From assembly GCF_022012395.1 (NCBI RefSeq), contig NZ_JAKLTQ010000010.1, positions 62,001-126,000 of the forward strand: a DNA stretch of 64,000 nt, read 5' to 3'. The stretch's first letter is position 1. Every line of letters begins with the position of its first letter. Origin of the DNA: Arthrobacter hankyongi (GTDB taxonomy: Bacteria; Actinomycetota; Actinomycetes; Actinomycetales; Micrococcaceae). The notes beneath the pieces are model-generated. The model did not search any database and had not been told where the DNA came from. It saw nothing but the letters and a program-made list of their open reading frames with translations. Both the position numbers and the translations under genes were made by a program. Shown in pieces: positions 13,782 to 51,862 of this stretch.

Positions 13782-14657
13782 TCAGGGTGCAAAAACGGTC
13801 AGGAGCACGGTGGCTGCTGCCGGGATCAGTGTGGCCAGCAAGGCGGCCAGGGCGCCCAGAGCCCAGGCGATGCGCCGGCGCCGGGCCGAATCCACCAGCT
13901 GCTGCAGTCCGGCGAAGCCGCGGTGCAGGGCGGCGGTTTCGGCAGGGACAGGCGGGTTCCGGTGCCAGGTTCCCGGCAGGCAGGCCGCCGCACCGATCCG
14001 GGCCACCTGTACGGGGTCGAGGACGGGTTTGCGCCGGGTGAGCCAGCGCAGCAATTGCCGGTCCGTCACCACGGCCACCCCGGCCGGCTGTTCGCGGACC
14101 GTTAGGGTCTTGGCCCCAACAATGACCAGCACCCCGGTAACCGCAACCGGTTCACCGGCGGCGGCAGTCAGGAGCCTGGCTGCGCGGCTGGCCTCGTGTG
14201 CGGCGTTGGGGATGTGGCGCTGGCGGTGGCCGGCCACCATTAGCGTGTTGCCGGCGACCCAGACGGACTGGTTGGCATGGTTTTTGGTATTGAGGGTAAA
14301 CACCCCGGCCGGACCGATCACTACATGGTCGATATCGGAGGTGCCGGCACCGACCGGCACGGCGTGCAGCACCGTCCAGTCCGGACCCAGCCGGGCCAGG
14401 ATTTTGCCGACCCGGATTTCTCCCAGCGCGCCCAGGTACCAGGGGCGGCTGTCCGGGCCAAGCGGATCAGCGCCGAAGACCCGTCCCAGCCGGGACTGGG
14501 GCCGGTCCCGTTCGTGGACGGCCAGCAGCTCGCTGATGACCGACTGCCCGGGTATCCGCTCCTGCAGCGGCGTACTCCCTCCGCTGGCATCCGCTTGAGG
14601 TCCTCCATCTCGACCCGCAAAGGCCGGGTCATCTCCCGGGGCAGGGTTGAAGGTCAT
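13782..14657 (-). CDS. NERD-domain (nuclease-related) protein with C-terminal membrane helix
   Basis: 291 residues. The NERD core spans about 75-170: GALGEIRVGKILARLG, then the active-site-like TSDIDHVVIGPAGVFTLNTKNH, where D, D and T-x-K correspond to the PD-(D/E)xK-type residues. Basic and aromatic residues follow (HANQSVWVAGNTL). Near the C-terminus a hydrophobic segment (ALGALAALLATLIPAAATVLLTVFA) predicts membrane anchoring. NERD proteins are thought to handle DNA, and many lie on plasmids or islands. It is transcribed singly toward the glycosylase gene. The N-terminal 60 residues are low in recognisable structure. Confidence 0.8.
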   Translation of the reverse strand: MTFNPAPGDDPAFAGRDGGPQADASGGSTPLQERIPGQSVISELLAVHERDRPQSRLGRVFGADPLGPDSRPWYLGALGEIRVGKILARLGPDWTVLHAVPVGAGTSDIDHVVIGPAGVFTLNTKNHANQSVWVAGNTLMVAGHRQRHIPNAAHEASRAARLLTAAAGEPVAVTGVLVIVGAKTLTVREQPAGVAVVTDRQLLRWLTRRKPVLDPVQVARIGAAACLPGTWHRNPPVPAETAALHRGFAGLQQLVDSARRRRIAWALGALAALLATLIPAAATVLLTVFAP

Positions 14658-14929: not shown

Positions 14930-17374
14930 TCAACGCTTCCGAGGCTGGCGTTTTTTCCTCTTGCCGCCGGGAGCTCGTGAAGTTGGCCTCCGTGCCGATG
15001 GTGGTACTGCCCTGGTTCTGCCTTCAGCCCGCCTCAGGCCTAAGGCGGTCACAGCTTCATCGAGTGCTGGGTCATCCTGCTCAGGCCCGTTCAGATAAAA
15101 CACGCCCATGACGTCGCCGTTCTCGTCGAGGTGGACGCCCAACGCTCGGTCTGCCTTGAGCTGATATTTCTTCAGACGCATGTACACGTCGAGACGCTCC
15201 AAGGACTCGTCGTGGCCGCCGGCCGATGCGCTGACAAAGAGTAGGGCGTGTCCCCAGTGGCCGACGAATTCCTGGACAACCGAGTGAAACCTACGATCCT
15301 GTCTGGCGTCGTTCACTATCTTGGAAACGTTTGCAGTGAGGGTTGCCTGTCCCTCGCCGGAGAGGTTGAGCAAATCGGCGCCGAACCGAAGCCAACCGGG
15401 TTTATGGTCCTCATCCAGAAACTCAACCAGCTCCTGAACTTGGGAAGCGTCGCGGCGCTGAGGCTTGGGAGCCGGCGTAGTCGAAGTACCGTCAGTGTAG
15501 TAAGCCCAGGCATCGAGAGGGTCCGTAAAAGTTCCTACGCGGCTTGGCTTCTGGCTACGGTAGCGCGCCCGGTCCTTGCCGGAGGGGCGTCCGGACAACG
15601 GGTATCGGGCGTGGATCTCGTCCGGGTCGGGTTCAAAGTACAAGCCGCCTTGGAGGAACCACATCAACAGGTCGAGTTCGTCTGACGCAACGAACAAGCG
15701 TGCGGTGGCGGGATCAGTTCGACGCCGCAGGTAGAGCAGGAACTGCGCGGGGAAATCCAGCAGTTCGCGGATGAGGATCAAATCATGCATGGATACAATC
15801 CACGGCATTGTCGGGCCTGTGAGGATTCCGCCCCGGACGAGGGTATCGGCAGCGATGGCCAAGGGCCCGAAGTCTTCCAAGCAGACAACGACTGTATGAA
15901 CTTCCCGGACCGTCGATAAATCCAGCCACTTGCCGTTGGCCCGCCATATTCCGCCGTTGGTAAGGATCAGCTCCTCAAGCCGCTGGGCCTGTTCCGTTGC
16001 GGCACCGATTGTTTTCCTGATGTCTTCGGTAACGCGCTGGACATTTCCGGTTCGCGCTTTCTCGGACAAGGCCCCGGCTTTGACCTCCAGGCACACTGCC
16101 ACATCGTCGAGGACCAGAAGCCCGTCGCTTTCCACGAGCTGCCCTGCATTTTTGGGGTCGGTAGCATCTGCGGACAAGGTGCTGACGTCCGAGCCGGCAG
16201 GTGCGGTCAGGTACTTCAGGGATTCATAGGTGGGTGAGGCCAGCCCGAATAACTGTGCCAACTCTCTGGCTGCCAGTTTCTCGACCAGATTGTCCCGCTG
16301 CCGGCCGTAGCTCTGCCAAGAGTTTTGCTTGGTCCTGAGGCCCGCCTCGAGACGAGGCCTTACCATCTCGGCGCTGATGCCGGACTGGAGTATCGTGTGG
16401 TTCCCGTCGGCGTCTCGCAAAGCGGCGATCTGGCTTAAACTCGTCACCCCGTGGATCAGCTTAAGGATCTCTTGCGCGGGATCGGCAGTGGCAAAGGGCC
16501 TGCTAAACGTGCGGAGGATCTTGTCGATCTTCTCCACGGGTACGCTGCAGTAGTGGGTCAGGTCTCCGGCTGTGAAAGTTGATGATTCAGCGGGGCTGTT
16601 CAGGGCAGCGTGGAGTGATTTTGCAAGTTCCTCGCGTTCTTGTTCGGTCGGATCGGTCTTCGATTCCATCAGATCGTGGATCCGACCCAGCGAATGGCGC
16701 AACGGGTCAAGTGATTTCTGGTAACACTGCTGAATCGCTTCGGCCACCTGCTCGACGTCCGATAGATCGAAGCCAAACTCCCGGTTGAGAAGTATTTGGA
16801 TGCCGCTTGCTCCGAGAATCTCTCGGTTGATTACCCGGCTGACTCTTTCATAATGTCGCCCCCGGACGACGAGGTCATGGGATACCAACTGGCCGGCGAG
16901 ATCGCGCAACGGTCCAAGCTCAGGCTTATCTCGCATCGCCTTCGACAGCATTATTCCAACGAGCACTATGTCGCGGGCATGACGGGCCAGTTGGGAAACC
17001 AGCGCCTCCGTGGGCTTCTCCGGCTTGGTGTCCGGACTGAGACGCTGGCCCAGGCTGAGGGCCACTATGGCCACAACGTCAATCACAGCCGGAAGCTGTT
17101 CCGACTCACTTTCTCTGTAGTCATCAACTGTCATCGGAATTTCATGCCTGCGGACAAGCTCAATGACATTCAGCAGGTCCTGTCCGGCCAGTAGCCGGAC
17201 CATTGCCTCTACAGATTCCCCAACCACTATCGGTGCTTGGGCTATAAACTCCTCCCAAGAATCGGCGGGGGTGAAGTGTCCGGCCAACCTCTCCACCCGG
17301 GCCATGAATGCATCCGCACCGGCAGGTCCCGGGACAACGACCTGCCGTGGTTGTCTGGGTCCGTCTTGTGTCAT
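14930..17374 (-). CDS. 814-residue protein with PD-(D/E)xK-like domain, coupled to type ISP R-M
   Basis: No family was recognised over the full length. The N-terminal ~350 residues look mainly helical (ARVERLAGHF; LIELVRRHEIPMTVDDY; repeated hydrophobic heptads). Residues about 355-475 read like a restriction-endonuclease-like domain: ESDGLLVLDDVAVCLEVKAG, with candidate D417, D423/D424 and E430-x-K432, then ALSEKARTGN and a helix DIRKTIGAATEQAQRLEELI. The last ~20 residues are strongly basic (GGKRKKRQPRKR). Its ATG overlaps the stop of the upstream restriction-modification gene as ATGA, so the two are made together and probably act together. GC-rich but less codon-biased than the catabolic operons, consistent with transfer. 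It could be a nuclease, a regulator of R-M, or an independent defence gene. Confidence 0.75.
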   Translation of the reverse strand: MTQDGPRQPRQVVVPGPAGADAFMARVERLAGHFTPADSWEEFIAQAPIVVGESVEAMVRLLAGQDLLNVIELVRRHEIPMTVDDYRESESEQLPAVIDVVAIVALSLGQRLSPDTKPEKPTEALVSQLARHARDIVLVGIMLSKAMRDKPELGPLRDLAGQLVSHDLVVRGRHYERVSRVINREILGASGIQILLNREFGFDLSDVEQVAEAIQQCYQKSLDPLRHSLGRIHDLMESKTDPTEQEREELAKSLHAALNSPAESSTFTAGDLTHYCSVPVEKIDKILRTFSRPFATADPAQEILKLIHGVTSLSQIAALRDADGNHTILQSGISAEMVRPRLEAGLRTKQNSWQSYGRQRDNLVEKLAARELAQLFGLASPTYESLKYLTAPAGSDVSTLSADATDPKNAGQLVESDGLLVLDDVAVCLEVKAGALSEKARTGNVQRVTEDIRKTIGAATEQAQRLEELILTNGGIWRANGKWLDLSTVREVHTVVVCLEDFGPLAIAADTLVRGGILTGPTMPWIVSMHDLILIRELLDFPAQFLLYLRRRTDPATARLFVASDELDLLMWFLQGGLYFEPDPDEIHARYPLSGRPSGKDRARYRSQKPSRVGTFTDPLDAWAYYTDGTSTTPAPKPQRRDASQVQELVEFLDEDHKPGWLRFGADLLNLSGEGQATLTANVSKIVNDARQDRRFHSVVQEFVGHWGHALLFVSASAGGHDESLERLDVYMRLKKYQLKADRALGVHLDENGDVMGVFYLNGPEQDDPALDEAVTALGLRRAEGRTRAVPPSARRPTSRAPGGKRKKRQPRKR

Positions 17375-20300
17375 TTGGTGACACCTAGCGGTGGCAAGTC
17401 AGCGATGATCCGGGTGGTCTCCATACTTACTGTGACGACTTTCCTGAGTAAATCGATGATGTACCGGGGATTGCCCACCTCATCACGCCAGTCGTTCGGG
17501 TCGTTGACGATGCCCGAGGCCTTGTCCGTTTTAACCTGATAGCGTTCCATGATCCATTCGATGGCTGACCGAGATCCGAGCATGTACCTGTAAGCCTCCT
17601 CAGGGATGCCGGAAAGGGTGATGTGCTCGTTGTAGACGATCCGGCTGCGGTCTTTGCCCCTGCCGAAGCTCATCTTCCTGACACGATACGGGTCCTGCAC
17701 CTTGGCCCCTACCGGCGTTTCGTCTAGTGGATACGGTTCAGCCTCTTCGTAGCCGATGTGCAGGGCTGCAAGCTCGCGACCGGCAGCGGTGAAAGCTTTG
17801 AAATCAGTGTTCGTGCCGACTTTGGGGATGCGGGGTAACATTTTCTTCAGATCTGCGGCGAAGTTGCTTCGATAGTCCGGGGAATGCAGGATTCCATAGA
17901 CGTAGTAGAAGATGTCGTCCTTGGTGACAGCAGAGCCATAGCTTTCGCGGTAATCGGTGAGTGCCCAATCGGAAATATTATCCAGTCGCCGGTATCCGCG
18001 GTGGAAACCCTCGGAGCCTGACAGTTCGCTCAATAGATCGTGTTCGTCTACTGGCACCGCGATGTATGTATAGCGTGAGAAGAGCTGTGCCGCATCCATG
18101 AACATACCAACATCCGGGAGTGCGTCCACGGCGATGACTGAAAACGGCGTCCTTGGTGTAGGAGCAATGACGTAAAGTCCAATGTTCTCTAGGTCGGAAA
18201 CGGGAAAATTGCTGGGCAATTTGTATACCATGTCGTTGAATTGCCGGTCGAAGTAGACGCGCTGCTTGTTGAATGGGCGGTACATCGAGGTCCGCATGGC
18301 GTCCTGCCGGAACTCGTATCGGGTGCCGCGGCCGATCTGTACCTTGTCCGCCCGGTTCCAACTGAAGTTGGCGGGGTCGAGGTTGATGAACGCGTCAACG
18401 GTGAGCGAGGGATCCGCGGCCCGGGCGGACTGGTAGTCACGAGACTGGGTATTGAAGAACTCGATGGACTGGCGGACGTTCTCTTCGAGCTTTGATTTGG
18501 AAGAGTTGTAGACCCAGGCATCACGCGCCGTTGCCAGACCGCGCGAGTAGGTAGCAAAGATGCCGCTGTTGCCTGCTGTCTTATCCCCAATCGGGGTGAA
18601 GGTTTCAAAGGAGGTGTTGCGCTGGTTGATCCAATCGCCGTCGGCGTTGGGTGCAATGGTCTGCCAGTCGATGGAGGCGATGGTGCTGTTGTCGATCATG
18701 GCGAGCTTGTCTTCGCGGGTGAGGTAGTCGCCGATGTCCCTGTAGCGGATGGCTGCTCCGGTGCTGGTGCCAGGTTTCTTCACGAGCAGCATGATGGCGA
18801 CGGTGTTGCGGCTGCCCGAGGCGAAGATCTTGCCGCCTTCTTTACGGGAGAGTTCGCCGGCGGTGCGCTGGTTGCCGCGGAGATTGTAGATGTAGATGGA
18901 ATGGAATTCGTCGGCGAGGGTTTTGCGGAGGCCGTCGGCGGTGTTGGAGTCGATGTAGCCGCCGTTGGAGACGTAGCAGATGATGCCGCCGTGTTCGGAG
19001 CCTTCGATCCGGTTGGAGGCCCAGCGGATGGCGCGGATGTAGGAGTCGTAGAGCGAGTTTTTGTTGACCGCCGTCGACCGGGCGGCGTAGGTGCGGCTGA
19101 TGGATTCGTCCAGACTCGGGTATTTCAGGTTGGCGTTCCCGTCATTGCCGCTGGTCTGTCCCACGGAGTAGGGCGGATTGCCCATAATCACGCGGATGTC
19201 GAGGGCTTTCTGGTGGGCGGCGCGTTCGTTGTTCTGCGGGAAGATGGCCTCGTCCATGGTGTCACCGTCTTCGGACATCTGGAACGTGTCGGTCAGGACG
19301 ATCCCTTGGAAGGGGACGTAGCCGGCGTCGGGGTCTTGTTCGCGGGTGATGCCGTGGAAGGTGGCTTCGATGTTGATTGCGGCGATGTAGTAGGCCAGCA
19401 GCAGGATTTCGTTGGCGTGCAGTTCGTTGGTGTACTTGTACAGCAGGTCTTCGGGCCGGATCAGGCCGGACTGCAGGAGCCGGACGATGAAGGTGCCGGT
19501 GCCGGTGAACGGGTCCAGCACGTGCACGCCCTTATCGGACAGGGAGGCGCCGAATTCGGCACGGAGCACGTCGTCGACGGACCGGATGATGAAGTCCACG
19601 ACCTCGACCGGGGTGTAGACGATGCCCAGGGACTCGGCGGCGCGGGGGAAGGCGTACTTGAAGAACTTCTCGTAAAGTTCGGTGATGATCTGCTGCTTGC
19701 CCTCGGCGTTGTCGATGCCCTCGGCCCGCATCCTCACCGAGGCGTAGAACTTCTCCAGGGACCCGGTCTCGGTCTCCAGGGACCTGCCCCGGAGCACGTC
19801 GAGCATCCGTTCCATCACCTGCGAGACCGGGTTGTGGGCCGCGAAGGAGTAGTCCTGGAAGAGGGCGTCGAAGACCGGCTTGGTGATCAGATGCTGCGAG
19901 AGCATGTCGACCGCGTCATTGCGGGTGATGCCGTCGTTGAGGTTCCCGCGCAGGCCTTCGAGGAACTTCTCGAACTCGTCCTGGACTCCGGAGCCGGGAT
20001 CGTCGAGGATGCCGCGGATGCGCAGGGTGTGGCGTTCGGCAATGTCCTTGACGTCTTTGGCCCAGTCTTCCCAGTAGCGGCGGTCGCCGACCTTCTGGAC
20101 GATGCGGGCGTAGATGGCGTTGCGCCAGTCTTCCAGGTTCGGGAAATTCAGGCGCGTCTGCTCGCCGGACTGCAGGTCTGTCTTGCCCGGCTCGTCCCCG
20201 GCGTCTCCAGTGCCGCCGACGCCGATGATCTGGAGCTTGTCGTCTTTGGCCTTGTTCAGTTCGAGCTTGTTGACCATGGCGTTGAAGCGGTCATCGTGGG

Positions 20301-22161
20301 CGCGCAGCGCCTGCAGAACGTCCCAGACGACCTTGTACTTCCGGTTGTCCTTCAGCGCCTCCTCCGGCGCTATGTCGGTGGGCACCGCGATGGGCAGGAT
20401 GATGTAGCCGTACTCTTTGCCGGGGGCCTTGCGCATAACGCGGCCGACGGACTGGACGACGTCGACCTGGGAGTTGCGCGGGTTCAGGAACAGCACTGCG
20501 TCCAGGGCTGGCACGTCCACGCCTTCGGAGAGGCAGCGGGCGTTGGAGAGGATCCGGCAGACTTCGCCGTCTTCGGCGGTGTCGGACTTGAGCCAGTCGA
20601 GCTTTTCGTTGCGTTCGAGCACGTTGTAGGTGCCGTCGACGTGTTCGCCCTCGCAGCGCAGTGAGCCTTCGTGTTCGCGGGCGAGCTGGTCGGTGACGTC
20701 GGCGAACATGCCGGCGATCTTTTTGGATTCTTTGATGTTCTGGGCGAAGGCGACGGCCCGGCGCATGGGGGCGCCGGTGACCTCGAGCCGGTTTTGGTCG
20801 ATGCCGCGTTTGGCGAGCCCGTTCCAGCAGCCGACGATCTTGGCCACATCGTCCAGGGTCAGTTCGTTGTTTTCGTCGGTGAGCAGTTGCTGGAAGGTCT
20901 TGTTGACCGATTCCTCGTTCACGGCCAGGACGAGGACCTTGTAGTCGGCCAGCAGGTTCTTCTCGACGGCCTCGCCGAAGCCGAGGTGGTGGAACTCGGG
21001 GCCGTAGGTGGCTTCGTCGTCCATGGAGAAGACCTTCACGTCGTTCTCCGCGGCCTTGGCCTTGGAGTCCTGGACGTAGATCCGCGGGGTGGCGGTCATG
21101 TAGAGGCGCTTCCGGGCCTTGATGAAGTCTTGGTCGTGGACCCGGACGAACGCCGAGTCATCGTCGTCGCCCTGGGTGAGGCCGGTGGTGCGGTGCGCCT
21201 CGTCGCAGATGATCAGGTCGAACTCGGGCAGCCCCAGAGCCTGGGCCTGGGCGACGACGTCGATGGACTGGTAGGTGGAGAAGACCACGGTGACCGCGTC
21301 CTGGCCGGAGCTGATCCGGGAACGGGCATAGAGCTTCTGCGGATCGGTGGAGGCAGGGAACGCCAGGTCGTGGACACTCAGGTCCTCATGTTTTTTCCCG
21401 ACCTTGGTGTCCGAGCAGACGGCCAACGGGCGCAGCGGCAACTCGGCCTCGGCCGTCCACTCGCTCAGGGTCTGCTGCAGCAGGGAAATGGAGGGAACCA
21501 GGAACAGCACGCTGCCGCCGACCGGGACCTGGTCCTCGACGATCCGCAGGGAGGTATAGGTCTTGCCGGTGCCGCAGGCCATGATCAGTTTGCCCCGGTC
21601 CCGGGTTCGGAAGCCGTCGCGGACCTTCTCGATGGCGGTGCGCTGGTGCGGGCGGGGCCGCTTCTTGTCCTTGCGCTCCATCTCCTCGGGCTGGTCCGGA
21701 TCAAAGGTGGACCAGTCCACGACCGAGTTCTCCAGGTCCTGGAACCGCAGCCGGGTCACCGGCTTGGACTGGTTCCGCAGCGCGTCCTCGGCGTGCTTGC
21801 TCCAGTTATCCGTGGTCGAAATGATCATGCCGTAGCTGAAATCGGCCTTGCCGGCGGCCGTGAAGAAGGAGTCGATCTGTTTCTTCTCCAGCCTGCGGGC
21901 CGGATCGTAGAACTTGCATTGGATCGCCACGAGATCACCGGTGCCGCGTTCCCGGGCCACCAGGTCGATTCCGGTATCGACCTGCCCGTTGCGGCCGGGC
22001 CACTCGCGCCACAGCCACACGTCGCTGTACTGGTCCGCGTACTGCGGATCCAGCTTCAGGTAGGACTGAATCAGGCGCTCAAACTTGCTTCCCTTGTCAT
22101 GCTCATCGGATGCGGCGAAGTACAGCTTGTCCAAAAGAGCAGCAAAAGAAGATGAGGCCAT
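17371..22161 (-). CDS. Type ISP single-polypeptide restriction-modification enzyme (LlaGI-like)
   Basis: 1596 residues from ATG 22161, the size of the LlaGI/LlaBIII class; the frame extends 54 codons upstream without homology-like sequence. Domains in order: an Mrr-like nuclease (GIDLVAR with D66 and QCK at 81-83); an SF2 helicase/translocase with Walker A ACGTGKT (195-201), DEAH at 320-323, TATPR at 356-360 and QSVGRVMRKAPG near 570; a helical coupler; a gamma-class N6-adenine methyltransferase with YTPVEVVDFI (849), VLDPFTGTG (881-889) and NPPY (995-998); and a C-terminal target-recognition region (about 1200-1596). Such enzymes methylate one strand of an asymmetric site, translocate with ATP and cleave on head-to-head collision. 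The 3' end overlaps the next gene by 4 bp. All key motifs are intact. Confidence 0.92.
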   Translation of the reverse strand: MASSSFAALLDKLYFAASDEHDKGSKFERLIQSYLKLDPQYADQYSDVWLWREWPGRNGQVDTGIDLVARERGTGDLVAIQCKFYDPARRLEKKQIDSFFTAAGKADFSYGMIISTTDNWSKHAEDALRNQSKPVTRLRFQDLENSVVDWSTFDPDQPEEMERKDKKRPRPHQRTAIEKVRDGFRTRDRGKLIMACGTGKTYTSLRIVEDQVPVGGSVLFLVPSISLLQQTLSEWTAEAELPLRPLAVCSDTKVGKKHEDLSVHDLAFPASTDPQKLYARSRISSGQDAVTVVFSTYQSIDVVAQAQALGLPEFDLIICDEAHRTTGLTQGDDDDSAFVRVHDQDFIKARKRLYMTATPRIYVQDSKAKAAENDVKVFSMDDEATYGPEFHHLGFGEAVEKNLLADYKVLVLAVNEESVNKTFQQLLTDENNELTLDDVAKIVGCWNGLAKRGIDQNRLEVTGAPMRRAVAFAQNIKESKKIAGMFADVTDQLAREHEGSLRCEGEHVDGTYNVLERNEKLDWLKSDTAEDGEVCRILSNARCLSEGVDVPALDAVLFLNPRNSQVDVVQSVGRVMRKAPGKEYGYIILPIAVPTDIAPEEALKDNRKYKVVWDVLQALRAHDDRFNAMVNKLELNKAKDDKLQIIGVGGTGDAGDEPGKTDLQSGEQTRLNFPNLEDWRNAIYARIVQKVGDRRYWEDWAKDVKDIAERHTLRIRGILDDPGSGVQDEFEKFLEGLRGNLNDGITRNDAVDMLSQHLITKPVFDALFQDYSFAAHNPVSQVMERMLDVLRGRSLETETGSLEKFYASVRMRAEGIDNAEGKQQIITELYEKFFKYAFPRAAESLGIVYTPVEVVDFIIRSVDDVLRAEFGASLSDKGVHVLDPFTGTGTFIVRLLQSGLIRPEDLLYKYTNELHANEILLLAYYIAAINIEATFHGITREQDPDAGYVPFQGIVLTDTFQMSEDGDTMDEAIFPQNNERAAHQKALDIRVIMGNPPYSVGQTSGNDGNANLKYPSLDESISRTYAARSTAVNKNSLYDSYIRAIRWASNRIEGSEHGGIICYVSNGGYIDSNTADGLRKTLADEFHSIYIYNLRGNQRTAGELSRKEGGKIFASGSRNTVAIMLLVKKPGTSTGAAIRYRDIGDYLTREDKLAMIDNSTIASIDWQTIAPNADGDWINQRNTSFETFTPIGDKTAGNSGIFATYSRGLATARDAWVYNSSKSKLEENVRQSIEFFNTQSRDYQSARAADPSLTVDAFINLDPANFSWNRADKVQIGRGTRYEFRQDAMRTSMYRPFNKQRVYFDRQFNDMVYKLPSNFPVSDLENIGLYVIAPTPRTPFSVIAVDALPDVGMFMDAAQLFSRYTYIAVPVDEHDLLSELSGSEGFHRGYRRLDNISDWALTDYRESYGSAVTKDDIFYYVYGILHSPDYRSNFAADLKKMLPRIPKVGTNTDFKAFTAAGRELAALHIGYEEAEPYPLDETPVGAKVQDPYRVRKMSFGRGKDRSRIVYNEHITLSGIPEEAYRYMLGSRSAIEWIMERYQVKTDKASGIVNDPNDWRDEVGNPRYIIDLLRKVVTVSMETTRIIADLPPLGVTK

Positions 22162-22459
22162 GCATTTATCTTGCCGCACCTTGAGAGCTGTTCCGTTTAC
22201 GGCCACCCGGGCGAGCGTGTCACCTGACTTGTGTTTGCTTTCTGCGAGGGGCTGGACAAAAGGATGGCCGGCCGGGAAGTGTCCAAACCTTGAACCTCGG
22301 CGCTGCCGCTGCGTTGCCGCCACCCGTTATGCGTTCGTCGGTGGCGGCTTCTGGCCAGGGGATGCATCATGTTCGAGTGTCTTACGATAGTGTTATACTG
22401 TATTGCAGGTATGACCGTATTATCTCTCGATGGGTATGGGCCCAGAAAGGACGACTTCA
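22162..22459. promoter_or_regulatory. Divergent promoter region between R-M and YfbU/Mrr genes
   Basis: This 300-bp intergenic region serves both directions. An AT-rich dip at 22381-22425 contains TATACT (22394-22399), a good -10, with a weak -35 TTCGAG at 22372-22377. The GGTATGACCGTATTATC stretch just after it could be an RHH operator, which is a guess. Confidence 0.45.
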
Positions 22460-23227
22460 ATGGCAACGGTAACTATTAGGCTGGAGGATGAGGCGCGGGA
22501 TCGGATCGCCGAAGCCGCAGAGGAACGCGGTGTCACGCTCAGCAATTACATTCGCGAAGCGCTCGAACTGCACCTGGCGGTCGAGCAGCCGGATGAATTG
22601 GGGAGCTCCCGTCCCGGTGGCGAAGAGGCGGTGTCTTTGACGTTGTTCCAGCGCAAGGTACTCCAGCTGCTTCACCGCAACCTTCTCGCCACTCAGGGCG
22701 GCCTCACGGAGTCTTACTACGACCACGATCAGGAAGTGCGGTCGCTAAAGGTCCTCGAGAACGGTTTCGCAGGAGAGTATGCCGAGGAATTTGCAGATAT
22801 CAGCGAGCCGATGACACGGGCCGAATGCGAGCTGGTCTGGGACATTCTGGATATGTTCCGCATCATCCAGGGCAGCGTGTACGAGCTTGGTGAGGGCGGC
22901 TGGGACCATATCGGCGTGGAGAACGCTGAGCGTTACGGGACATTCCGCGGATTCGACCTCAATGATTCCCTGGAATCCCGCCTTCTCGCTTATGCCAAGT
23001 ACCTGATCAAGACGGACCGGTGGACCGAACAGAGTAGCGCTTTCAGCCGCGAGAACAAGGGGGGCAACTCCCACACGCCAAGGCTTCCCACCTACCGCGC
23101 CATGCTGCGGGTCTTCAAACCTCTTTGGCGTCAGGCCGTCCGGGGCGGCAGCCGTTTTCACCTCTCCGCAGAGGATCTCCGGCAGGTCCTGCTGGCGGCC
23201 CCCGGCGCGCAGCCGACAGGGGAGTAG
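22460..23227 (+). CDS. RHH-YfbU fusion protein
   Basis: 255 residues from ATG 22460, preceded by AGAAAGGA. The first ~45 residues form a ribbon-helix-helix DNA-binding domain (ATVTIRLEDEARDRIAEAAEERGVTLSNYIREALEL). From about residue 60 to 185 the sequence matches the YfbU family: LTLFQRKVLQLLHRNLLA, YYDHDQEVRSLKVLENGF, DISEPMTRAECELVWDILDMF, WDHIGVENAERYGTFRGFDLNDSLESRLLAYAKYL. E. coli YfbU has been connected to MazF-mediated cell death, but its biochemical role is unknown. The fused RHH suggests DNA-binding autoregulation. The next gene, an Mrr-like nuclease, starts 2 bp after its stop, so the two form a transcription unit. Confidence 0.85.
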   Translation: MATVTIRLEDEARDRIAEAAEERGVTLSNYIREALELHLAVEQPDELGSSRPGGEEAVSLTLFQRKVLQLLHRNLLATQGGLTESYYDHDQEVRSLKVLENGFAGEYAEEFADISEPMTRAECELVWDILDMFRIIQGSVYELGEGGWDHIGVENAERYGTFRGFDLNDSLESRLLAYAKYLIKTDRWTEQSSAFSRENKGGNSHTPRLPTYRAMLRVFKPLWRQAVRGGSRFHLSAEDLRQVLLAAPGAQPTGE

Positions 23228-23229
23228 GC

Positions 23230-24978
23230 ATGCACGAAGGCAGTATCAACTGGAAGCACATCAGCGAAGAGGACTTTAACCGCGTGGTTGAAGCGTTGCT
23301 GTTGCGCATGTATCACCGGCCGCCTGAATCTACAGCCGCGGCGCTGGACGGGCGGGGCGGAGACGGGGGCATTGATGTTGCCGTCTACGACGAAACCGGC
23401 AAGATCAAGCACATCTTCCAGCTCAAGCACTTTCCCGAGGGTTTTTCCGGTGGATTCCGGGACACCCGGCGGCGGCAGATCAAGGAATCGTTTGACGCCG
23501 CATGGACGAACCACGCACCGCCCGTGTGGACGTTGGTAGTGCCATGCAATCCGACGGACAAGGAAAGCATTTATGTGAGTGGCTTGGGCAAGGGCAAGGA
23601 GGTGACTCCGGCCATCTGGGGAGAACGGCTTCTGGACATCCATCTTGCCCGGCGTGAGAACCGCGACATCCTGGACGCGGCCACGCGAAATCCCTTGCTG
23701 GACGCCCTGAAGTTCATTGGGCAGGAGAATGCCGCCCTGGCTGGAGCTGGAGACCTATCGACCAGGCTTTCCAACCTTCACGGGCTGGCTGCGGGGCGCA
23801 GCTTGTACTGGGACACGGATTTCCACGTGTCCAGGGACGGGGTAACCGAAGCGTATCGGGCGAAGCATCCGCGCGCCGGGGAGCTGGAACCGCTCGGATT
23901 CAAATTCGCAGTGAAGAAGAACGCCTTTGGTGTCGAAGACATCCAGCGCGTGCTCGACTACGGAGTCCGTAGACGGGTCACGATTCCGGGAGCAGCCGTC
24001 GAGGGGTTCAAAACGGTTGGCCCGGAATGGTTCCAGCACGAAGGTACCGTTGACCGGATCGAGATCAGTCCGGCCCATCCGCTGCCGGCAGATCAGCGGA
24101 TTTCAGTGACGCTGGAGTTCCTGGATGAGGACGGTTTTACCCGTGCCAGCCACCAGGGCATGATGCACGCTAAGAGTGACGGTGGCCGCGGAGTGGCATT
24201 CGTTGCGCGTTTCTACGGAATTTTGGAGCTTGACGCCGAGATTCCATACGCCCTGTCGGCTCCGGGGAACTTTGGCTTGAACATGGAGTTCGCCAATGCC
24301 CGTGTAACCGATGCCCAGGGCGTTTTGCGGCTTCTTCGGGACTTCGACTCCGGATCCGTCATCCAGGTGCTGTTCGAAGACAAGAAGCTACTGAAGGGGT
24401 TCACCAACGGGGGTGCGCAGTTGATGGACCCTGCCACAGAGCTGTTGGTCGAGGACCTTGCAGTGCTCGAGGATAAAATGAACGCCACGTTCAGATTTCC
24501 TGTTTCGCTGACTAACCGACAACGCGTGATGATACGTGTCGCTCGCCTGTTGGCGGAAGGCCAGGCTACCTGGATGCCGCCCGAAACCTCGCTCACAGGC
24601 ATTCTCTCCGGGGAACCCTACGCAGGCCTGAACACCTTGCTCTCAGGGTCATGCGCGATCACTATGCCCATCCCGGCCTTTCCCGTCGAGATTCAGGGCA
24701 GTCGGTTCAACCTCGGGCCTGCCGTCCTCTATCATCCCCATACGGCAGTACGCGACGTCGACGACCTGAAGAAGGCGTTCCGAAAAGGTACGGCGGCCGG
24801 CCGGGAAGTAATCTTTGCTCCGCAGGGAGAAAAACTCATTTGGGTCATGCCGGGGAAATATGAGGGCGGGGAGAGGGTCCCTGATACCGTGCCGTGGGAT
24901 TTGCCCGGTATCCCGATGCCCGATTTCGGAGATCAGGAGTTGCCGTCAGGTCCGTCAGCCCTGAAGGGGCTTTCTTAG
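23230..24978 (+). CDS. Mrr-like PD-(D/E)xK nuclease with long unknown C-terminal region
   Basis: 582 residues from ATG 23230; the GGGGAG site overlaps the end of the YfbU gene. Residues 10-140 form a type IV restriction (Mrr-like) endonuclease domain: E21 in RVVEALLLRMY, GGDGGID with D49, and QLKHF with Q64 and K66, in proper D-(x)-QxK spacing. The remaining ~430 residues are unfamiliar: a beta-rich region (FKFAVKKNAFGVEDIQRVLDYG; RISVTLEFLDEDGFTRAS) and a late segment that could be sensor-like. The architecture is a nuclease plus a sensing/effector region. With its RHH-YfbU partner and the neighbouring R-M, a phage-defence role is likely, but the trigger is not visible. Confidence 0.8.
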   Translation: MHEGSINWKHISEEDFNRVVEALLLRMYHRPPESTAAALDGRGGDGGIDVAVYDETGKIKHIFQLKHFPEGFSGGFRDTRRRQIKESFDAAWTNHAPPVWTLVVPCNPTDKESIYVSGLGKGKEVTPAIWGERLLDIHLARRENRDILDAATRNPLLDALKFIGQENAALAGAGDLSTRLSNLHGLAAGRSLYWDTDFHVSRDGVTEAYRAKHPRAGELEPLGFKFAVKKNAFGVEDIQRVLDYGVRRRVTIPGAAVEGFKTVGPEWFQHEGTVDRIEISPAHPLPADQRISVTLEFLDEDGFTRASHQGMMHAKSDGGRGVAFVARFYGILELDAEIPYALSAPGNFGLNMEFANARVTDAQGVLRLLRDFDSGSVIQVLFEDKKLLKGFTNGGAQLMDPATELLVEDLAVLEDKMNATFRFPVSLTNRQRVMIRVARLLAEGQATWMPPETSLTGILSGEPYAGLNTLLSGSCAITMPIPAFPVEIQGSRFNLGPAVLYHPHTAVRDVDDLKKAFRKGTAAGREVIFAPQGEKLIWVMPGKYEGGERVPDTVPWDLPGIPMPDFGDQELPSGPSALKGLS

Positions 24979-25326: not shown

Positions 25327-26280
25327 TCACCCCTTATTGGTCAGCAGGACGGCAAAATCCGCTCGGAGACTCGGGAGCGCCTCACTCGCATCCTCGTCGA
25401 GGAGGTCGTCCAGGGTCCAGGCCGCGAAGTAGGGCTGTCTGGGGAGCAGGATGCCGACCCTGCGGATGCCCAGCGAATCGTCGAGGTCGAGGAGTGCGTA
25501 GCCAAGCAGCTGGAATAGAGTGTCCCTGATCCAGGAGCTGGTGATCTCTTCCCTCGTCTTTAGGTCCACGAGCATGTCTCCGACAGCCCAATCAGCGTCT
25601 GCCCCTCCTACTGCCACGCTTCCAAGGAAGCGCGGGTTGGGCACGTAGTCACCGCCTGCCTCGATGCCCCGGTTCCACGCATCCAGGAGCGGCTCAACCG
25701 CGTCTCGCATGACGGCGATGTCGACGAGCAGCGAGTCGTCGATACTCAGCATGAGATCGACGGCGTCTTTCGCTTGTTTGATCCGTCGGCCCAGTTCACC
25801 CGAGAGCGCCTCGTACGGTCCTGTCCGCGCGATACTCTCGCACCATGCGAGAGGAACCGACGCCCTGGCGAGGTTCAGCGGGTGGCTGTCCCGCTTCTGC
25901 AAGGTGAGATAGGCGAAGTTGAAGGCATCATTCAGCACCTTGTGAATGTGCTTTCCCCTGTGAACCACGCCCGGATCCGCGGCAAGGATGTCGAGTCCTC
26001 TCTGTGCCACCGTCTCCACGAAGTTGAAGCCGGGCAGGTCCATCCGGAGGCGATAGTCGAGAGCCATGCCCGCCACAACGGCGTGGCTCTTGCGATCCTT
26101 CACCTCTTCAGGGATGGGGAGCTGCGTTCTAAGCGCAAGGAGCTCGTCGAAGCCGAAAGACGAGGCCACCACGTGGCCCCGGCGACCACGGGTTCCAGCC
26201 AGTGCGAGCTGCGGAGCGCACTCGTAGATGAATTGCCGAATCGGCGATTCCTTGCTGCTGAGGTGGTTCGTGAGGGACAT
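25327..26280 (-). CDS. Hypothetical protein with PD-(D/E)xK-like C-terminal domain
   Basis: 317 residues. The N-terminal ~200 residues are helical and unfamiliar (VHRGKHIHKVLNDAFNFAYL; ELGRRIKQAKDAVDLMLSID). Residues about 220-300 read ADADWAVGDMLVDLKT followed by IRDTLFQLLGYALLDLDD and RVGILLPRQPYFAAW. The D-x-L-V-D-L-K core with a following helix (D235, D239-x-K241) is the usual pattern of the restriction-endonuclease-like fold in uncharacterised defence proteins. It is a single gene between the Mrr-like nuclease and a small membrane protein. Function unknown; a nuclease or DNA-binding role is inferred. Confidence 0.7.
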   Translation of the reverse strand: MSLTNHLSSKESPIRQFIYECAPQLALAGTRGRRGHVVASSFGFDELLALRTQLPIPEEVKDRKSHAVVAGMALDYRLRMDLPGFNFVETVAQRGLDILAADPGVVHRGKHIHKVLNDAFNFAYLTLQKRDSHPLNLARASVPLAWCESIARTGPYEALSGELGRRIKQAKDAVDLMLSIDDSLLVDIAVMRDAVEPLLDAWNRGIEAGGDYVPNPRFLGSVAVGGADADWAVGDMLVDLKTREEITSSWIRDTLFQLLGYALLDLDDSLGIRRVGILLPRQPYFAAWTLDDLLDEDASEALPSLRADFAVLLTNKG

Positions 26281-27183: not shown

Positions 27184-27762
27184 TTAGGTGGTAGGCGTGC
27201 GCTGCACGATGCGGTACACCGTGGAGCGGGCGACGTTGAACAGGGAAGCGATCTCGGTTGTGGTGTGCTGGCCTCCCTTATATAGGGAGACGAGGTGGGC
27301 TTCCTGGGCCTTGGTGAGCTTGGGCTGCTTGCCGCGCAGCCTTCCCTTGGCCTTGGCCACCTGCATGCCTTCCCGGGTGCGGGCGCGGATGAGGTCGGCT
27401 TCGAACTCGGCGACCATGGCCAGGACGTTGAAGAGCAGCCGGCCGACCGGGTCGGTCGGGTCGTGGACGGATCCGCCGATGCTCAGCTTCACATTCTTCT
27501 TTGTCAGTTCTTCGACGATGTTGCGGGCGTCGGGCAGGGACCGGGCGAGCCGGTCGAGCTTGGTGACCACCAGGGTGTCGCCGGCGCGGACGGCGGCCAG
27601 GGCCTCGCGCAGGCCGGGCCGGTCGCGGCTGGTACCGGTGAGCCCGTGGTCGGTATAGATCCTGTCGTCGGGCACTCCGAGGGCGGCCAGCCCGTTCCGT
27701 TGCGCGGTGAGGTCCTGGTCATTGGTCGAGACGCGGGCGTAGCCGACGATGTGGGCCGTCAT
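27184..27762 (-). CDS. Serine recombinase, resolvase/invertase type
   Basis: 192 residues from ATG 27762, the normal small-resolvase length. The catalytic Ser lies in VGYARVSTNDQDLTAQR (residue about 10), with the Arg residues of KLDRLARS and the following FEADLIRARTREGM helix. A C-terminal HTH (TTTEIASLFNVARSTVYRIVQR) completes it. Small resolvases recombine res sites in Tn3-like transposons or plasmids. No transposase gene accompanies it here, so it may be a relic of a Tn3-type element or work on a local res site. It marks the right side of the nuclease-rich island. Confidence 0.9.
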   Translation of the reverse strand: MTAHIVGYARVSTNDQDLTAQRNGLAALGVPDDRIYTDHGLTGTSRDRPGLREALAAVRAGDTLVVTKLDRLARSLPDARNIVEELTKKNVKLSIGGSVHDPTDPVGRLLFNVLAMVAEFEADLIRARTREGMQVAKAKGRLRGKQPKLTKAQEAHLVSLYKGGQHTTTEIASLFNVARSTVYRIVQRTPTT

Positions 27763-27799
27763 AGCTTCAACTGTAGCGTTTAGGGTACCTTCACCGGGC

Positions 27800-27940
27800 T
27801 TTTTTGCGGGCGGGGTATACGCGAATCTGACAAGCCCGAAAATCCGCTCCTTATTAACTGTCGGCAACTGACGGGGGAGTGGTGCGCTGAAGGACCGGCT
27901 TGTGCGACAGTGGGGGTCTGTCAGGAAGCACGCCTTAGTT
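27800..27940. promoter_or_regulatory. Upstream region of the resolvase, possible res site
   Basis: The region upstream of the resolvase start has an AT-rich patch with GTATAC (27815-27820), an inverted TGACA (27828-27832) / TGTCG (27859-27863) pair, and GGGGTCTGTCAGGAAG near 27913. Small resolvases usually bind a res site next to their own gene. No clear three-subsite array is visible. Confidence 0.3.
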
Positions 27941-42059: not shown

Positions 42060-42103
42060 TAGTATTTTTTTCCTTGACTAGTATTCTATTTTGAGTTTAG
42101 GGT
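42060..42103 (+). promoter_or_regulatory. Promoter and direct repeats before the aromatic operon
   Basis: TTGACT (42074-42079) and TAGGGT (42098-42103), 18 bp apart, form a good promoter for the operon at 42204. TAGTATT occurs twice (42060-42066 and 42079-42085), 19 bp apart, overlapping the -35, and may bind the GntR protein. The area is a sharp AT-rich dip. Confidence 0.6.
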
Positions 42104-42203
42104 TGTGGCCAGCCCCACAGCGTAGGCAATCGTGCCGGCGCAGCTGGCAAACCCAATCCCGGTCCTGCAGCGGGCATCCGCCGTGACGAAAGGAAACACC
42201 ATC

Positions 42204-43058
42204 ATGAAATACGCATCTTTCACTGCCGCGGACGGGTCCGCCACCTGGGGCGTCATCGAGGAGGGGCGGGCGTTTGACCTCGGCCCGTCGGGCGCCGGCC
42301 TGGCCCCGAGCCTGCGGGCGGCCGTGGAGCAGGGCCTGTTCGGCGCCGTCACCGCCGGGCAGTACCAGGCCGCCCCGGCGCGGCCGGAGGACGGGATCGG
42401 GTTCCTGCCGGCGATCACCGATCCGGGCAAGATCATCTGCATCGGGGTGAACTACAGGACCCACCAGGAGGAGTCGGGCAAGACCGGGCAGACCGCGCCC
42501 ACGGTCTTCACCCGGTTTGCCGATACCCAGATGGGCCACCGGGCCCCGGCGGTGATGCCGGCCAGCACCACGAAGTTCGACTACGAGGGCGAAATGGCCC
42601 TGGTCATCGGCCGGGAGGCCTGGCACGTGGCCGAGGAGGAGGCCTGGGACTACATCGCCGGCTACGGGGCCTACAACGACTTCTCGGTCCGGGACTGGCA
42701 GAAGGCCGCCAGCCAGTGGATCCCGGGCAAGAACTTCCCCTCCACCGGCGCCTTCGGCCCCTACCTGGTCCCGGCCGCGGACCTGGGCGGCGTTAACAGG
42801 CTCACCCTGGAGACCCGGGTCAACGGCGAAACCCGGCAGAAGGCCTCGGTGGCCGACCTGTACTTCCCCATCCCGCAGCTGATCGCCTACGTCACCGGCT
42901 TCACCCGGCTCTCCCCGGGCGACGTGATCGTCACCGGCACCCCCGGCGGCGTGGGCCTGTTCTGGGGCGAGGGCGGCCTGCTGGCCGACGGCGACGTCGT
43001 CGAGGTCGAAATCACCGGCCTGGGCACCCTGGCCAACACCGTCGAACGCGAACGCTAA
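42204..43058 (+). CDS. Fumarylacetoacetate hydrolase-family protein
   Basis: 284 residues from ATG 42204 after AAAGGA. The FAH signature is present: ICIGVNYRTHQEESG, FDYEGEMALVIGREAW (Glu and Asp metal ligands) and VIVTGTPGGVGLF. FAH proteins hydrolyse carbon-carbon bonds of ring-cleavage products or act as 2-hydroxyhepta-2,4-diene-1,7-dioate isomerases. It heads an operon with an FAD hydroxylase, a quinone reductase and an extradiol dioxygenase, so it most likely processes the meta-cleavage product. The GntR protein facing it probably regulates it. Confidence 0.93.
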   Translation: MKYASFTAADGSATWGVIEEGRAFDLGPSGAGLAPSLRAAVEQGLFGAVTAGQYQAAPARPEDGIGFLPAITDPGKIICIGVNYRTHQEESGKTGQTAPTVFTRFADTQMGHRAPAVMPASTTKFDYEGEMALVIGREAWHVAEEEAWDYIAGYGAYNDFSVRDWQKAASQWIPGKNFPSTGAFGPYLVPAADLGGVNRLTLETRVNGETRQKASVADLYFPIPQLIAYVTGFTRLSPGDVIVTGTPGGVGLFWGEGGLLADGDVVEVEITGLGTLANTVERER

Positions 43059-43091
43059 GCGCGGCCGGAAGAGCCCAGGAAGGACTGGTTG

Positions 43092-44660
43092 ATGGACAAC
43101 CTCATCGAGACCGACGTACTGGTGGTCGGGGCCGGGCCCGTCGGCCTGGCCGCGGCCTGCCTGCTGGCCGACCAGGGCGTGCGCGTCACCGTGGTCGAGA
43201 AGCGCGCCGGCACCTCCGACGAACCGCGCGCGATCAGCATCACCGACGAATCGCTGCGGATCCTGGCCCAGATCGGCATCCTGGAGGAGTTCCTCCAGGA
43301 CGTGCTGCCGGACACCGGCGCCCGCTACTACGGGCGCCGCGGCCAGCTGCTGGCCCAGGTCCGCCCCGGCGGCCGGCGGCTGGGCCAGCCCGGCAAGTCC
43401 CAGTTCGACCAGCCGGTCCTCGAAGCCCTGCTGCTGGCAGCGGCCCGGGAACGGGACCTGATCGACCTCCGCTTCAACACCGAGGCCTTCGGCATCAGCG
43501 ACGCACCCGAGCACGCGGACACCGTGGTCATCGACGCAGCCGGCCGGCACACGGTCCGCGCCCGGTGGGTGATCGCCTGCGACGGCGGGCGCAGCCCGGT
43601 CCGGGCCCAGCTGGGCATCCCGATGGAAGGCTCCACCCAGGTGCAGAAGTGGATCGTGGTGGACATTGTCAACACGCCGGGCGAGCCGGAAAAGTTCGCC
43701 GAGTTCCACTGCAACGCCACCCGCCCGGCGGTCGTGGTGCCCGGGGTCAAGGGCCGGCGCCGCTACGAGTTCATGCTGCTGCCCGGCGAGGACGCCCGCA
43801 CCGTCACCGCCCCGGACTCGATCATCGCCCTGACCGCCCCGTTCCAGAGGATCACCGCCGCCGACATCCGCCGCTCCGCGGTCTACGTGGCCCACCAGCG
43901 GGTGGCACTGAACTACCGGGCCGGGCACGTGCTGCTGGCCGGGGACGCCGCGCACATGATGCCCCCGTTCGCCGGCCAGGCCCTGAACGCCGGGATGCGC
44001 GACGTGGCCAACCTGGCCTGGAAAATCGCCGCCAACGTCAATGGCACCGGCACCGAGGCCCTGGTGGACACCTACCAGGCCGAACGGCGCCCGCACGCGG
44101 TGGACATGGTGCGCCTGTCCCAGCGCATCGGCACCGTCGTCATGGGCACCAACCCGACCCTGACCGCCCTGCGCGACACCGCGGTCACCGCCCTGGGCAT
44201 CATGCCCGCGGCCAAGAACTGGCTCACCGCCATGAAATTCCTCAAACAGCCCCACTACACCCACGGCTGCGTGCTCAAACCTGCAGCCAGTGTCCCTGCG
44301 GCTGCCGCCGGCCTCGTCGGCGCTTCGCTGCCGCAGCCGAACGTCCGGACCGGCGACGGCGGTGTCCTGCCGCTGGACCGGATCCTGGGCGCGGGTTGGG
44401 CGATGCTACGGTTCCAGGCAGGGGGACGGTTGAGCATCGTTCCCTTCGGCTCCGCCCCCGATTCCGGCGGCCAGGTCCACGTGACGGACGCCGACGGAGC
44501 CTTCGCGGCGATCCCGCCAGGCAGCTCCCTGGTGGTACGTCCGGACCGATACGTCGCCGCCGCGGCGGACACCACGGACGAGCACGCTGTGCTGGCCCGG
44601 TTGGGGACGCTGCTGCCCGACCTTCCGCGGCAGGCGGCCGCCCAGCTCGTGGGGGCCTGA
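43092..44660 (+). CDS. FAD-dependent aromatic hydroxylase (MhpA/PheA-like)
   Basis: 522 residues; AAGGA stands seven bases before ATG 43092. The FAD site is GAGPVGLAAA (about 14-23), the middle motif is CDGGRSPVR, and the second FAD site is LAGDAAHMMPPFAGQALNAGMRDVANLAWKIA. The C-terminal domain is a thioredoxin-like fold of the phenol hydroxylase/MhpA class. It hydroxylates an aromatic ring using NAD(P)H and O2, giving a catechol-type substrate for the dioxygenase at 45695. Start and stop are 33 and 3 bp from the flanking genes. The exact aromatic substrate (for example phenylpropionate- or resorcinol-like) is not readable. Confidence 0.92.
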   Translation: MDNLIETDVLVVGAGPVGLAAACLLADQGVRVTVVEKRAGTSDEPRAISITDESLRILAQIGILEEFLQDVLPDTGARYYGRRGQLLAQVRPGGRRLGQPGKSQFDQPVLEALLLAAARERDLIDLRFNTEAFGISDAPEHADTVVIDAAGRHTVRARWVIACDGGRSPVRAQLGIPMEGSTQVQKWIVVDIVNTPGEPEKFAEFHCNATRPAVVVPGVKGRRRYEFMLLPGEDARTVTAPDSIIALTAPFQRITAADIRRSAVYVAHQRVALNYRAGHVLLAGDAAHMMPPFAGQALNAGMRDVANLAWKIAANVNGTGTEALVDTYQAERRPHAVDMVRLSQRIGTVVMGTNPTLTALRDTAVTALGIMPAAKNWLTAMKFLKQPHYTHGCVLKPAASVPAAAAGLVGASLPQPNVRTGDGGVLPLDRILGAGWAMLRFQAGGRLSIVPFGSAPDSGGQVHVTDADGAFAAIPPGSSLVVRPDRYVAAAADTTDEHAVLARLGTLLPDLPRQAAAQLVGA

Positions 44661-51522: not shown

Positions 51523-51720
51523 GGTCCTGTCCCTCTCCTCACTGCCTGCATCATGGGTTTACGGCGTGGCCGCCCCAGGGGGCCGGAGGGGAAAACGGAA
51601 TCTAATCCGCGTGCTCGGCAACGGGTGCCGCAACAATGAAGGGCCCGCAGGCGGCTCCCGGCGCCCGGCTAGATGACGGCCTCAGGAAGACCATAGGTGG
51701 ACGGCGTCGGCAGGCGGCCA
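51523..51720 (-). ncRNA. Possible bridge-RNA region of the IS110 element
   Basis: IS110-group elements carry the bridge RNA upstream of the transposase. This 200-bp stretch upstream of the transposase start has no gene and contains a GC-rich imperfect hairpin (GGCCGCCCC / GGGGGCCGG at about 51569-51587). The call rests mostly on position. Confidence 0.35.
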
Positions 51721-51833
51721 CAGGCACATTTTCAACCCGGAACGGGCGTCCGACAAGGACAAATAGGCTAGATGTAAAGACCACCGGACTGGTACCGCAC
51801 AGGGTCCTCCGGGATGAACGAACGATTTACGGT

Positions 51834-51862
51834 GTGCCCCCGACGTTTACGCGTCGGGGCAC
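51834..51862. terminator. GC-rich hairpin between the two insertion sequences
   Basis: GTGCCCCCGACG (51834-51845) pairs with CGTCGGGGCAC (51852-51862), one base bulged. A second 8-bp hairpin, CCGGTGGG/CCCACCGG, lies at 51959-51978. No T-runs. The 51523-52017 interval otherwise holds no credible gene. Confidence 0.4.

Follow-up and report, generated by a model that had tools for sequence, protein, structure and literature searches.

A predicted NERD-like nuclease gene overlapping a type ISP restriction-modification gene of Arthrobacter hankyongi: a probable single capture of a self-contained mobile gene

Two overlapping genes and the question they raise

A 64,000-nucleotide stretch of the Arthrobacter hankyongi genome (contig NZ_JAKLTQ010000010.1, positions 62,001 to 126,000; hereafter the window) carries a type ISP restriction-modification (R-M) gene whose stop codon overlaps the start of a second gene, encoding a protein of 814 amino acids (aa) that is called the partner here. 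A sequence-only reading of this DNA had taken the partner for a fixed companion of the type ISP enzyme and had assigned it a PD-(D/E)xK nuclease core, which raises the question of whether the pair is a dedicated defence machine or a meeting of two independent genes. Our analysis points to the latter: the partner is probably a self-contained, mobile, NERD-like nuclease gene with a likely role in defence, captured once behind the type ISP gene. The pair consists of two minus-strand open reading frames (ORFs), at 14930-17374 (814 aa, ATG start) and 17371-22323 (1650 aa, GTG start), and its main features are as follows.

14930 to 17374, minus strand: partner gene, 814 aa, predicted NERD-like PD-(D/E)xK nuclease of an uncharacterised family (ORF, relatives, AlphaFold2)
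17371 to 17374, minus strand: ATGA overlap of the type ISP stop codon and the partner start codon
17371 to 22161, minus strand: type ISP restriction-modification enzyme (Pfam domains, PADLOC PDLC03597, start placed by comparison with plasmid pTC1)

Association of the partner with type ISP enzymes

In a dedicated two-component system, the nuclease would cut DNA exposed or nicked by translocation of the type ISP enzyme, or would be triggered when R-M fails. The ATGA overlap and shared strand, the low G+C content of both genes (0.59 and 0.61, against 0.66-0.68 in the flanks), the nuclease core of the partner and the presence of a homologue in the operon of the R-M-like system Hma all favour such an arrangement, but the distribution of the two genes does not. 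A TBLASTN search with the type ISP protein was made over 82 homologue loci (79 distinct), comprising 73 loci from genome contigs, six from plasmids and three from whole genomes, with flanks of up to 9-10 kb that are shorter at contig ends. No type ISP gene was found in them; the only matches were two short helicase matches (L054 and L011) belonging to one cluster, the L011 member of which is a helicase with HA domains. In the opposite direction, a profile of the partner was run on 36 loci with similarity to the type ISP gene (30 genome loci with 1.5 kb flanks and six plasmid loci with flanks of up to 7 kb), and it matched only the window's own copy and none of the other 35. A near-full-length type ISP gene is present in 17 of those 35 (L101-L111 and L132-L137), the rest being mostly partial or helicase-only. 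The closest type ISP relative, on plasmid pTC1 (78.7% identity), lacks the nuclease, and its next gene lies 370 bp downstream on the opposite strand. The nuclease is also absent beside the 16 further near-full-length genes, on five more plasmids and at 11 loci of the same class, and the four homologues nearest to the partner in a tree (L017-L020) have no type ISP gene within the flanks examined. Among ten genomes of the genus, two carry the nuclease and only the A. hankyongi genome carries a full type ISP gene, while G660 gave short helicase matches only.

The claim of a fixed partner of type ISP enzymes thus did not survive (0 of 82 homologue loci with a type ISP gene, 0 of 35 other ISP-similarity loci with a partner): homologues usually lie away from type ISP genes, one being found inside the R-M-like Hma system. 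As a conserved arrangement the dedicated two-component system is rejected on this lack of co-occurrence, and we consider it improbable as an account of the pair. Coupling seen in a single genome speaks for co-expression and not for a conserved two-component system, and the pair looks like a one-off capture because relatives of the nuclease mostly stand alone.

Gene neighbourhood and mobility of the homologues

To describe how the homologues live, a home-made gene caller, which places gene starts only roughly, was applied to 78 distinct loci (L024, in which it detected no core ORF, was dropped). The ORF reaches 740 aa or more in 68 loci; in nine it is short or split although away from the contig ends, and in one the edge of the contig cuts it. 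A large co-oriented gene (150 aa or more, no further than 50 bp away) lies upstream in only two of those 68 loci (L009 and L083) and downstream in none; the sequence available has no upstream gene of that size in four loci and no downstream one in eight. The gene therefore lacks an abutting large co-oriented upstream gene in 66 of 68 cases, including the four with no upstream gene in the sequence available, and in 36 of the 68 the nearest upstream gene of at least 150 aa is divergent. When the limits were relaxed to 100 aa and 60 bp, ORFs of 104-132 aa were found to abut or overlap the homologues of L011, L037, L084 and L087, and pieces of the split nuclease gene itself appeared in L055 and L058.

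Recurrent neighbours over the 78 loci were mobile-element genes, with Tn7-like clusters among them: a cluster with a representative matching Phage_integrase (15 loci), AAA_22 and Mu-transpos_C clusters (six each) and TniQ (three). A set of 136 nearest-neighbour proteins, from which four longer than 1300 aa had been dropped, included at least five integrases and at least four DDE_Tnp_1 transposases among the best 25 of 114 Pfam families, and mads-, PifA-, GajA/Old- and TnsB-like proteins, with two to three members each, among the best 25 of 173 PADLOC families. Homologues occur in 14 plasmid records, and some of them have relaxase, ParA/ParB or Tn7-like genes as neighbours. Plasmids of ordinary size are not the only carriers, since six of 73 homologue loci are on contigs of more than 2 Mb.

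It could be asked whether such a gene is defensive at all, or whether it serves the upkeep of plasmids and transposons through maintenance, transfer or DNA processing. The plasmid records and their relaxase, partition and Tn7-like neighbours would suit that role, as would the lack of homologues in the phage records and in the pattern scan of viral contigs. However, integrases and transposases are the only mobile-element genes that recur beside the homologues, known defence systems (Hma, Druantia, GajA- or PifA-like) surround or adjoin some of them, and the six loci on large contigs also speak against upkeep, which we regard as unlikely. A still less likely account is a chance fusion without function, in which the gene hitch-hikes downstream of the type ISP gene and may be decaying. 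The nine loci with short or split ORFs away from a contig edge and the single type ISP pairing are in its favour, whereas the window copy is an intact ORF of 814 codons with all of the invariant catalytic residues and an exact stop-start overlap, and we give this account very little credence.

Homologues within other defence operons

On the Gordonia plasmid pGKT2 (L009) the homologue lies between a helicase gene and a DUF1156 methylase gene, with a one-base overlap with the helicase as annotated, and PADLOC identified its neighbours as HmaA, HmaB and HmaC. This is the only one of 83 homologue loci with all three Hma proteins, L027 having a partial HmaA-like match, and no Hma model was among the PADLOC matches of the twelve window proteins scanned. 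An HmaB relative was present in 115 plasmid records, three of which were viewed besides pGKT2. In two close Hma operons HmaA and HmaB are adjacent and the nuclease is absent, while in a cyanobacterial (Gloeocapsa) operon the genes of an AAA ATPase and a DUF4435 protein, a PARIS-like combination, are among those that fill the slot between them. The HmaA-HmaB gap (L009, 9830-12289; L170, 5199-7575) appears to accept unrelated cargo.

At L083 (5-13185) the homologue is divergent from the Druantia genes DruD/DruE; it follows a 186-aa gene with a 4-bp overlap and is itself followed by a PifA/KAP-like ATPase. In a tree built by a quick method and rooted at its midpoint, the window partner clusters with four homologues (support 98), and the Hma-embedded homologue of pGKT2 falls in the other half. 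Since the window's tree group has no type ISP gene in its flanks and the pGKT2 homologue is in the other half, the captures by the type ISP and Hma loci look like separate events.

Similar recruitment has been described for other systems. In PMC12839542, auxiliary PD-(D/E)xK nucleases embedded in core loci are described as common in BREX/BR systems, with a proposed backup role. The pGKT2 homologue resembles these in being embedded between HmaA and HmaB, whereas the window pair involves a type ISP enzyme and not a DUF499 system, and the partner family is mostly solitary. PMC12799240 describes nuclease-protease pairs, with a nuclease of the metallo-beta-lactamase (MBL) type and an activating protease, that unrelated immune systems have recurrently acquired. 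A nuclease module recruited by unrelated defence systems is common to both cases, but no protease stands out among the best 25 of the 114 Pfam families of partner neighbours.

Relatives of the partner

At E <= 1 the partner protein had no match in Pfam or PADLOC, and in NCBIfam it gave one chance-level match (E 0.054), with no family cut-off reached. A 59-member alignment was made from the window partner and 58 of the 73 genome-contig loci (60 have an ORF of 750-905 aa; L049 and L063 were excluded), and over its members six Pfam families and one PADLOC family matched one member each, at E 0.012-0.093. A single-sequence scan of genome contigs with the partner yielded no relative; an alignment-based pattern scan of them yielded 73, nearly all from Actinomycetota, with L082 labelled as a Halomonadaceae metagenome-assembled genome. 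These 73 relatives and a confident structure model indicate that the partner gene is more than a chance ORF. TBLASTN against plasmids matched the 14 records mentioned above, none of which reached 60% identity. In seven of them the match takes in 80% or more of the query, and in five, which come from Vibrio, Photobacterium, Salimicrobium and Exiguobacterium, it extends over only 34-42%. In whole-genome samples, with the A. hankyongi genome counted, the partner was found in six of 296 genomes of the class (two of the six partial) and in eight of 396 of the phylum (four partial). No partner relative was present in the phage records searched or among the 21 stretches picked up by a pattern scan of viral contigs, so that an origin as a phage gene is rejected. 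A search of open-access literature, subscription papers being outside its scope, found, among the papers listed, no title or abstract naming the partner family or an extra nuclease linked to type ISP enzymes.

A SEC-C motif is present at the ends of two of the three distant relatives scanned, on a Vibrio plasmid (L013) and a Photobacterium plasmid (L016), and may be the source of the 'SecA' annotation carried by some actinobacterial homologues. The four cysteines of the window partner (217, 276, 428 and 498) all lie outside its tail; it therefore has no SEC-C tail, and the SecA/SEC-C label of the plasmid homologues is rejected for it.

Predicted fold and active site

A PD-(D/E)xK core has the order alpha-beta-beta-beta-alpha-beta, with D and (D/E)xK on adjacent strands. 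AlphaFold2 modelled the whole partner with a mean predicted local distance difference test score (pLDDT) of 90.3 and a predicted template modelling score (pTM) of 0.90, and in this model the core runs as helix 350-375, strands 383-390, 412-422 and 425-432, helix 445-473 and strand 491-498. This order matches that of a PD-(D/E)xK core, and the residues concerned are retained in 59 of 59 aligned sequences: E365, E415, D417, E430, K432 and Q462 are invariant, and D424 is retained in 56. In a wider set of 15 sequences with five distant members, E365, E415, D417, K432 and Q462 were still invariant and E430 nearly so. The nuclease part alone (residues 346-560) was modelled at pLDDT 92.7, and its Foldseek matches were mostly R2 endonuclease, VC1899, Can2, Nt.BspD6I, FokI, PfoI, SgrAI, Cap4 and viral cap-snatching endonucleases, which we take to be mostly PD-(D/E)xK nucleases. 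Because the Foldseek E-values are weak (0.007 or worse), we base the fold call on the topology, the conserved residues and the consistency of the matches with one another. The whole model gave nothing at E <= 0.001 against PDB and BFVD, the N- and C-terminal parts being searched only within it, and all matches in a sequence search against solved structures stayed at E 0.088 or above.

The prediction that the partner has a PD-(D/E)xK-like nuclease core is thus supported by the model. The sequence-only reading had proposed D417, D423/D424, E430 and K432 as candidate residues, and both the residues (D417, E430 and K432 in all 59 sequences, D424 in 56) and the structure prediction it had called for bear out the core; E365, E415 and Q462, equally invariant, had not been on its list. 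Its strongly basic tail is also real, with 11 lysine or arginine residues among the final 20, and at least six such residues occur in the last 20 of 57 of 68 near-full-length homologues. Mean column conservation is 0.39-0.45 in the N-terminal part versus 0.58-0.60 in residues 346-650, and the invariant residues of the C-terminal part are S528, D531, L532, R552, D565, E566, D568, K735 and R743. The protein can be divided as follows.

16337 to 17329, minus strand: residues 16-346, mostly helical N-terminal part, candidate sensor or regulator (model secondary structure)
15875 to 16327, minus strand: residues 350-500, predicted nuclease core with E365, E415, D417, E430, K432 and Q462 (invariance, domain model, Foldseek, hhalign)
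15035 to 15874, minus strand: residues 501-780, conserved C-terminal part with a beta-beta-alpha-beta-beta-alpha unit near 697-777 (model)
14933 to 15034, minus strand: residues 781-814, basic tail, low model confidence (model, lysine and arginine count)

Comparison with NERD, Mrr and Shedu nucleases

Three nuclease groups were compared with the partner by hhalign. The partner core aligned with NERD (PF08378) at E 5.8e-5 (probability 66), with E365, D417 and E430/K432 set against conserved NERD positions, and the whole-protein profile aligned with NERD at E 4.1e-4 (probability 35). The core gave E 0.75 against the type ISP enzyme's own Mrr domains, and the partner gave E 0.15 and 0.36 against SduA_C of Shedu; NERD itself gave 0.0078 against Mrr and 0.0052 against Shedu. 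This ranking is only a guide, as the alignments differ in depth, that of NERD holding 19 sequences of 30 fetched PF08378-match loci from related genomes and that of Mrr eight type ISP loci plus the window. A distant relative, L013, matches NERD at E 0.0012, under the Pfam cut-off, together with SEC-C.

By sequence comparison, then, the core is nearest to NERD among the three groups. The two share the catalytic pattern E...D...(E)xK, which aligns together with the helix that follows it. They differ in that the window partner, of about 810 aa, has N- and C-terminal parts of its own and no Pfam NERD match at E <= 1. We term the family NERD-like, not NERD, because the partner falls short of the Pfam gathering score, one of the 59 members matching at E 0.091. 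Kinship with the type ISP enzyme's own Mrr nuclease is unsupported by the E of 0.75. Shedu (SduA) is a single-gene PD-(D/E)xK nuclease with a variable N-terminal part, and the partner is similar in its predicted fold and its variable N-terminal part. It differs in having neither SduA_C (PF14082) in Pfam nor a PADLOC match, and with the hhalign values above its identity as a Shedu protein is rejected by sequence. Shedu is described as a single-gene nuclease in PMC12839542. An ordinary NERD-domain protein (E 2e-13, with a host-like G+C of 0.697) is encoded at 13782-14657 on the minus strand, 272 bp downstream of the partner gene, and the A. hankyongi genome has four NERD matches.

Proposed mode of action

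We infer that the window holds two independent genes, probably on one shared transcript. The type ISP enzyme would act alone, like its relatives without a second gene. In the manner of LlaGI and LlaBIII (PMC4666363), it would restrict unmethylated DNA: after recognition it would move along the DNA by ATP-driven translocation, and collision would end in shredding. The partner belongs to a family of large putative nucleases, found mainly in Actinomycetota, whose genes are usually solitary and sit on mobile or variable DNA. Its N- and/or C-terminal parts may sense a cue of invasion and restrain the nuclease, making it an autoinhibited or cue-dependent effector; the basic tail would bind nucleic acid, and upon release D417, E430 and K432, with E365 and Q462, would cleave DNA. 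Having been captured behind the type ISP stop codon, the gene is likely translated together with the type ISP gene, and its product may act as a second layer of defence when restriction is evaded, a backup role carried over from that proposed for BREX-related auxiliary nucleases in PMC12839542.

Several points weigh against the capture of a self-contained defensive nuclease. The Foldseek E-values are weak, and the hhalign probability of NERD is only 66% for the core and 35% for the whole profile. Small co-oriented ORFs (104-132 aa) accompany a few homologues, the counts of defence neighbours come without a background control, and the single clean ATGA coupling could mark a real partnership in this lineage. 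Ten other proteins of the low-G+C stretch around the pair gave weak PADLOC matches only, and PADLOC has no model for the partner family, so that, the type ISP gene aside, the island does not register as a known defence island. We still hold a single capture of a mobile, probably defensive gene to be the probable explanation. A broader proposal would make the family a new form of single-gene nuclease immunity, in which a helical sensor precedes the NERD-like core and a basic C-terminal module follows it. Its genes would spread on mobile DNA and be captured repeatedly in unrelated ATP-dependent R-M-like operons (type ISP, and Hma on pGKT2), their products serving there as backup effectors that respond to nicks or breaks in DNA or to a main enzyme that has been inhibited; we put this forward tentatively, and think it rather doubtful in its full extent.

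If a single capture is correct, Actinomycetota have a candidate for stand-alone defence in a nuclease family with no PADLOC 2.0 or Pfam model, and the captures of this family behind a type ISP gene and inside Hma exemplify how solitary effectors turn into members of operons. A 4-bp overlap in one genome should not be equated with a conserved two-component machine. The point of interest that is left is the nuclease family itself, which may be undescribed.

The type ISP enzyme

Pfam placed Mrr_cat_2, ResIII/Helicase_C, ISP_coupler, N6_Mtase and Type_ISP_C in a single chain, the motifs GTGKT, DEAH, DPFTGTG, NPPY and D-x(n)-QCK are present, and PADLOC matched the protein to PDLC03597 (labelled REase_MTase_IIG) with 2267.9 bits. 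With all five kinds of domain and the expected motifs in one chain the enzyme is complete, as had been proposed, and the proposed 4-bp overlap, in which its stop codon and the partner start read ATGA, is likewise confirmed. The start is likely the ATG at 22161, residue 55 of the 17371-22323 ORF, giving a protein of 1596 aa, because the pTC1 relative opens with the same MASS motif and its DNA similarity to the window stops near 22179; the earlier choice of 22161 as the end coordinate was therefore correct. Promoter and terminator scans gave nothing above background. The domains are arranged as follows.

21685 to 22056, minus strand: nuclease domain Mrr_cat_2 (Pfam, E 4.3e-49)
20428 to 21663, minus strand: superfamily 2 (SF2) helicase-like ATPase (Pfam ResIII, DEAD and Helicase_C)
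19699 to 20076, minus strand: coupler (Pfam ISP_coupler, E 1.7e-51)
18874 to 19695, minus strand: N6-adenine methyltransferase (Pfam N6_Mtase and, under its cut-off, Eco57I; NPPY motif)
17449 to 18561, minus strand: C-terminal specificity domain (Pfam Type_ISP_C, E 1.5e-100)

This single chain of Mrr nuclease, SF2 helicase, coupler, N6 methyltransferase and specificity domain agrees with the type ISP architecture described for LlaGI and LlaBIII in PMC4666363. The window differs in its overlapping second gene, which is absent beside the 17 near-full-length type ISP relatives examined.

Surroundings of the locus

G+C content is 0.59-0.62 in the genes measured from about 10.8 to 27.9 kb, versus 0.66-0.68 in the flanks, with the exception of the NERD gene (0.697), and this low-G+C segment looks like a variable stretch. 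In a megablast search of 5000-29900 against plasmids, the best place lay in the type ISP gene for each of the best 15 of 47 records. Divergent from the type ISP gene, 22430-24978 on the plus strand encodes a ribbon-helix-helix and YfbU protein overlapping a 617-aa ORF, which has a sub-threshold Mrr_cat match (E 0.0061); this is possibly another nuclease operon. A 317-aa ORF at 25327-26280 (minus strand) has a weak PADLOC match (E 0.0032) to an RT-associated PD-(D/E)xK (DRT) model, and a resolvase-type recombinase at 27184-27867 (minus strand), at the low-G+C edge, is a possible trace of movement. Further along the window, ARAGORN called a tRNA-Val at 42290-42381 (minus strand) inside a long ORF at 42078-44264 (minus strand), which may be real or a false call, and stretches within about 50256-53196 resemble transposases of the IS110 and IS630 families carried by Rhodococcus and Streptomyces plasmids.

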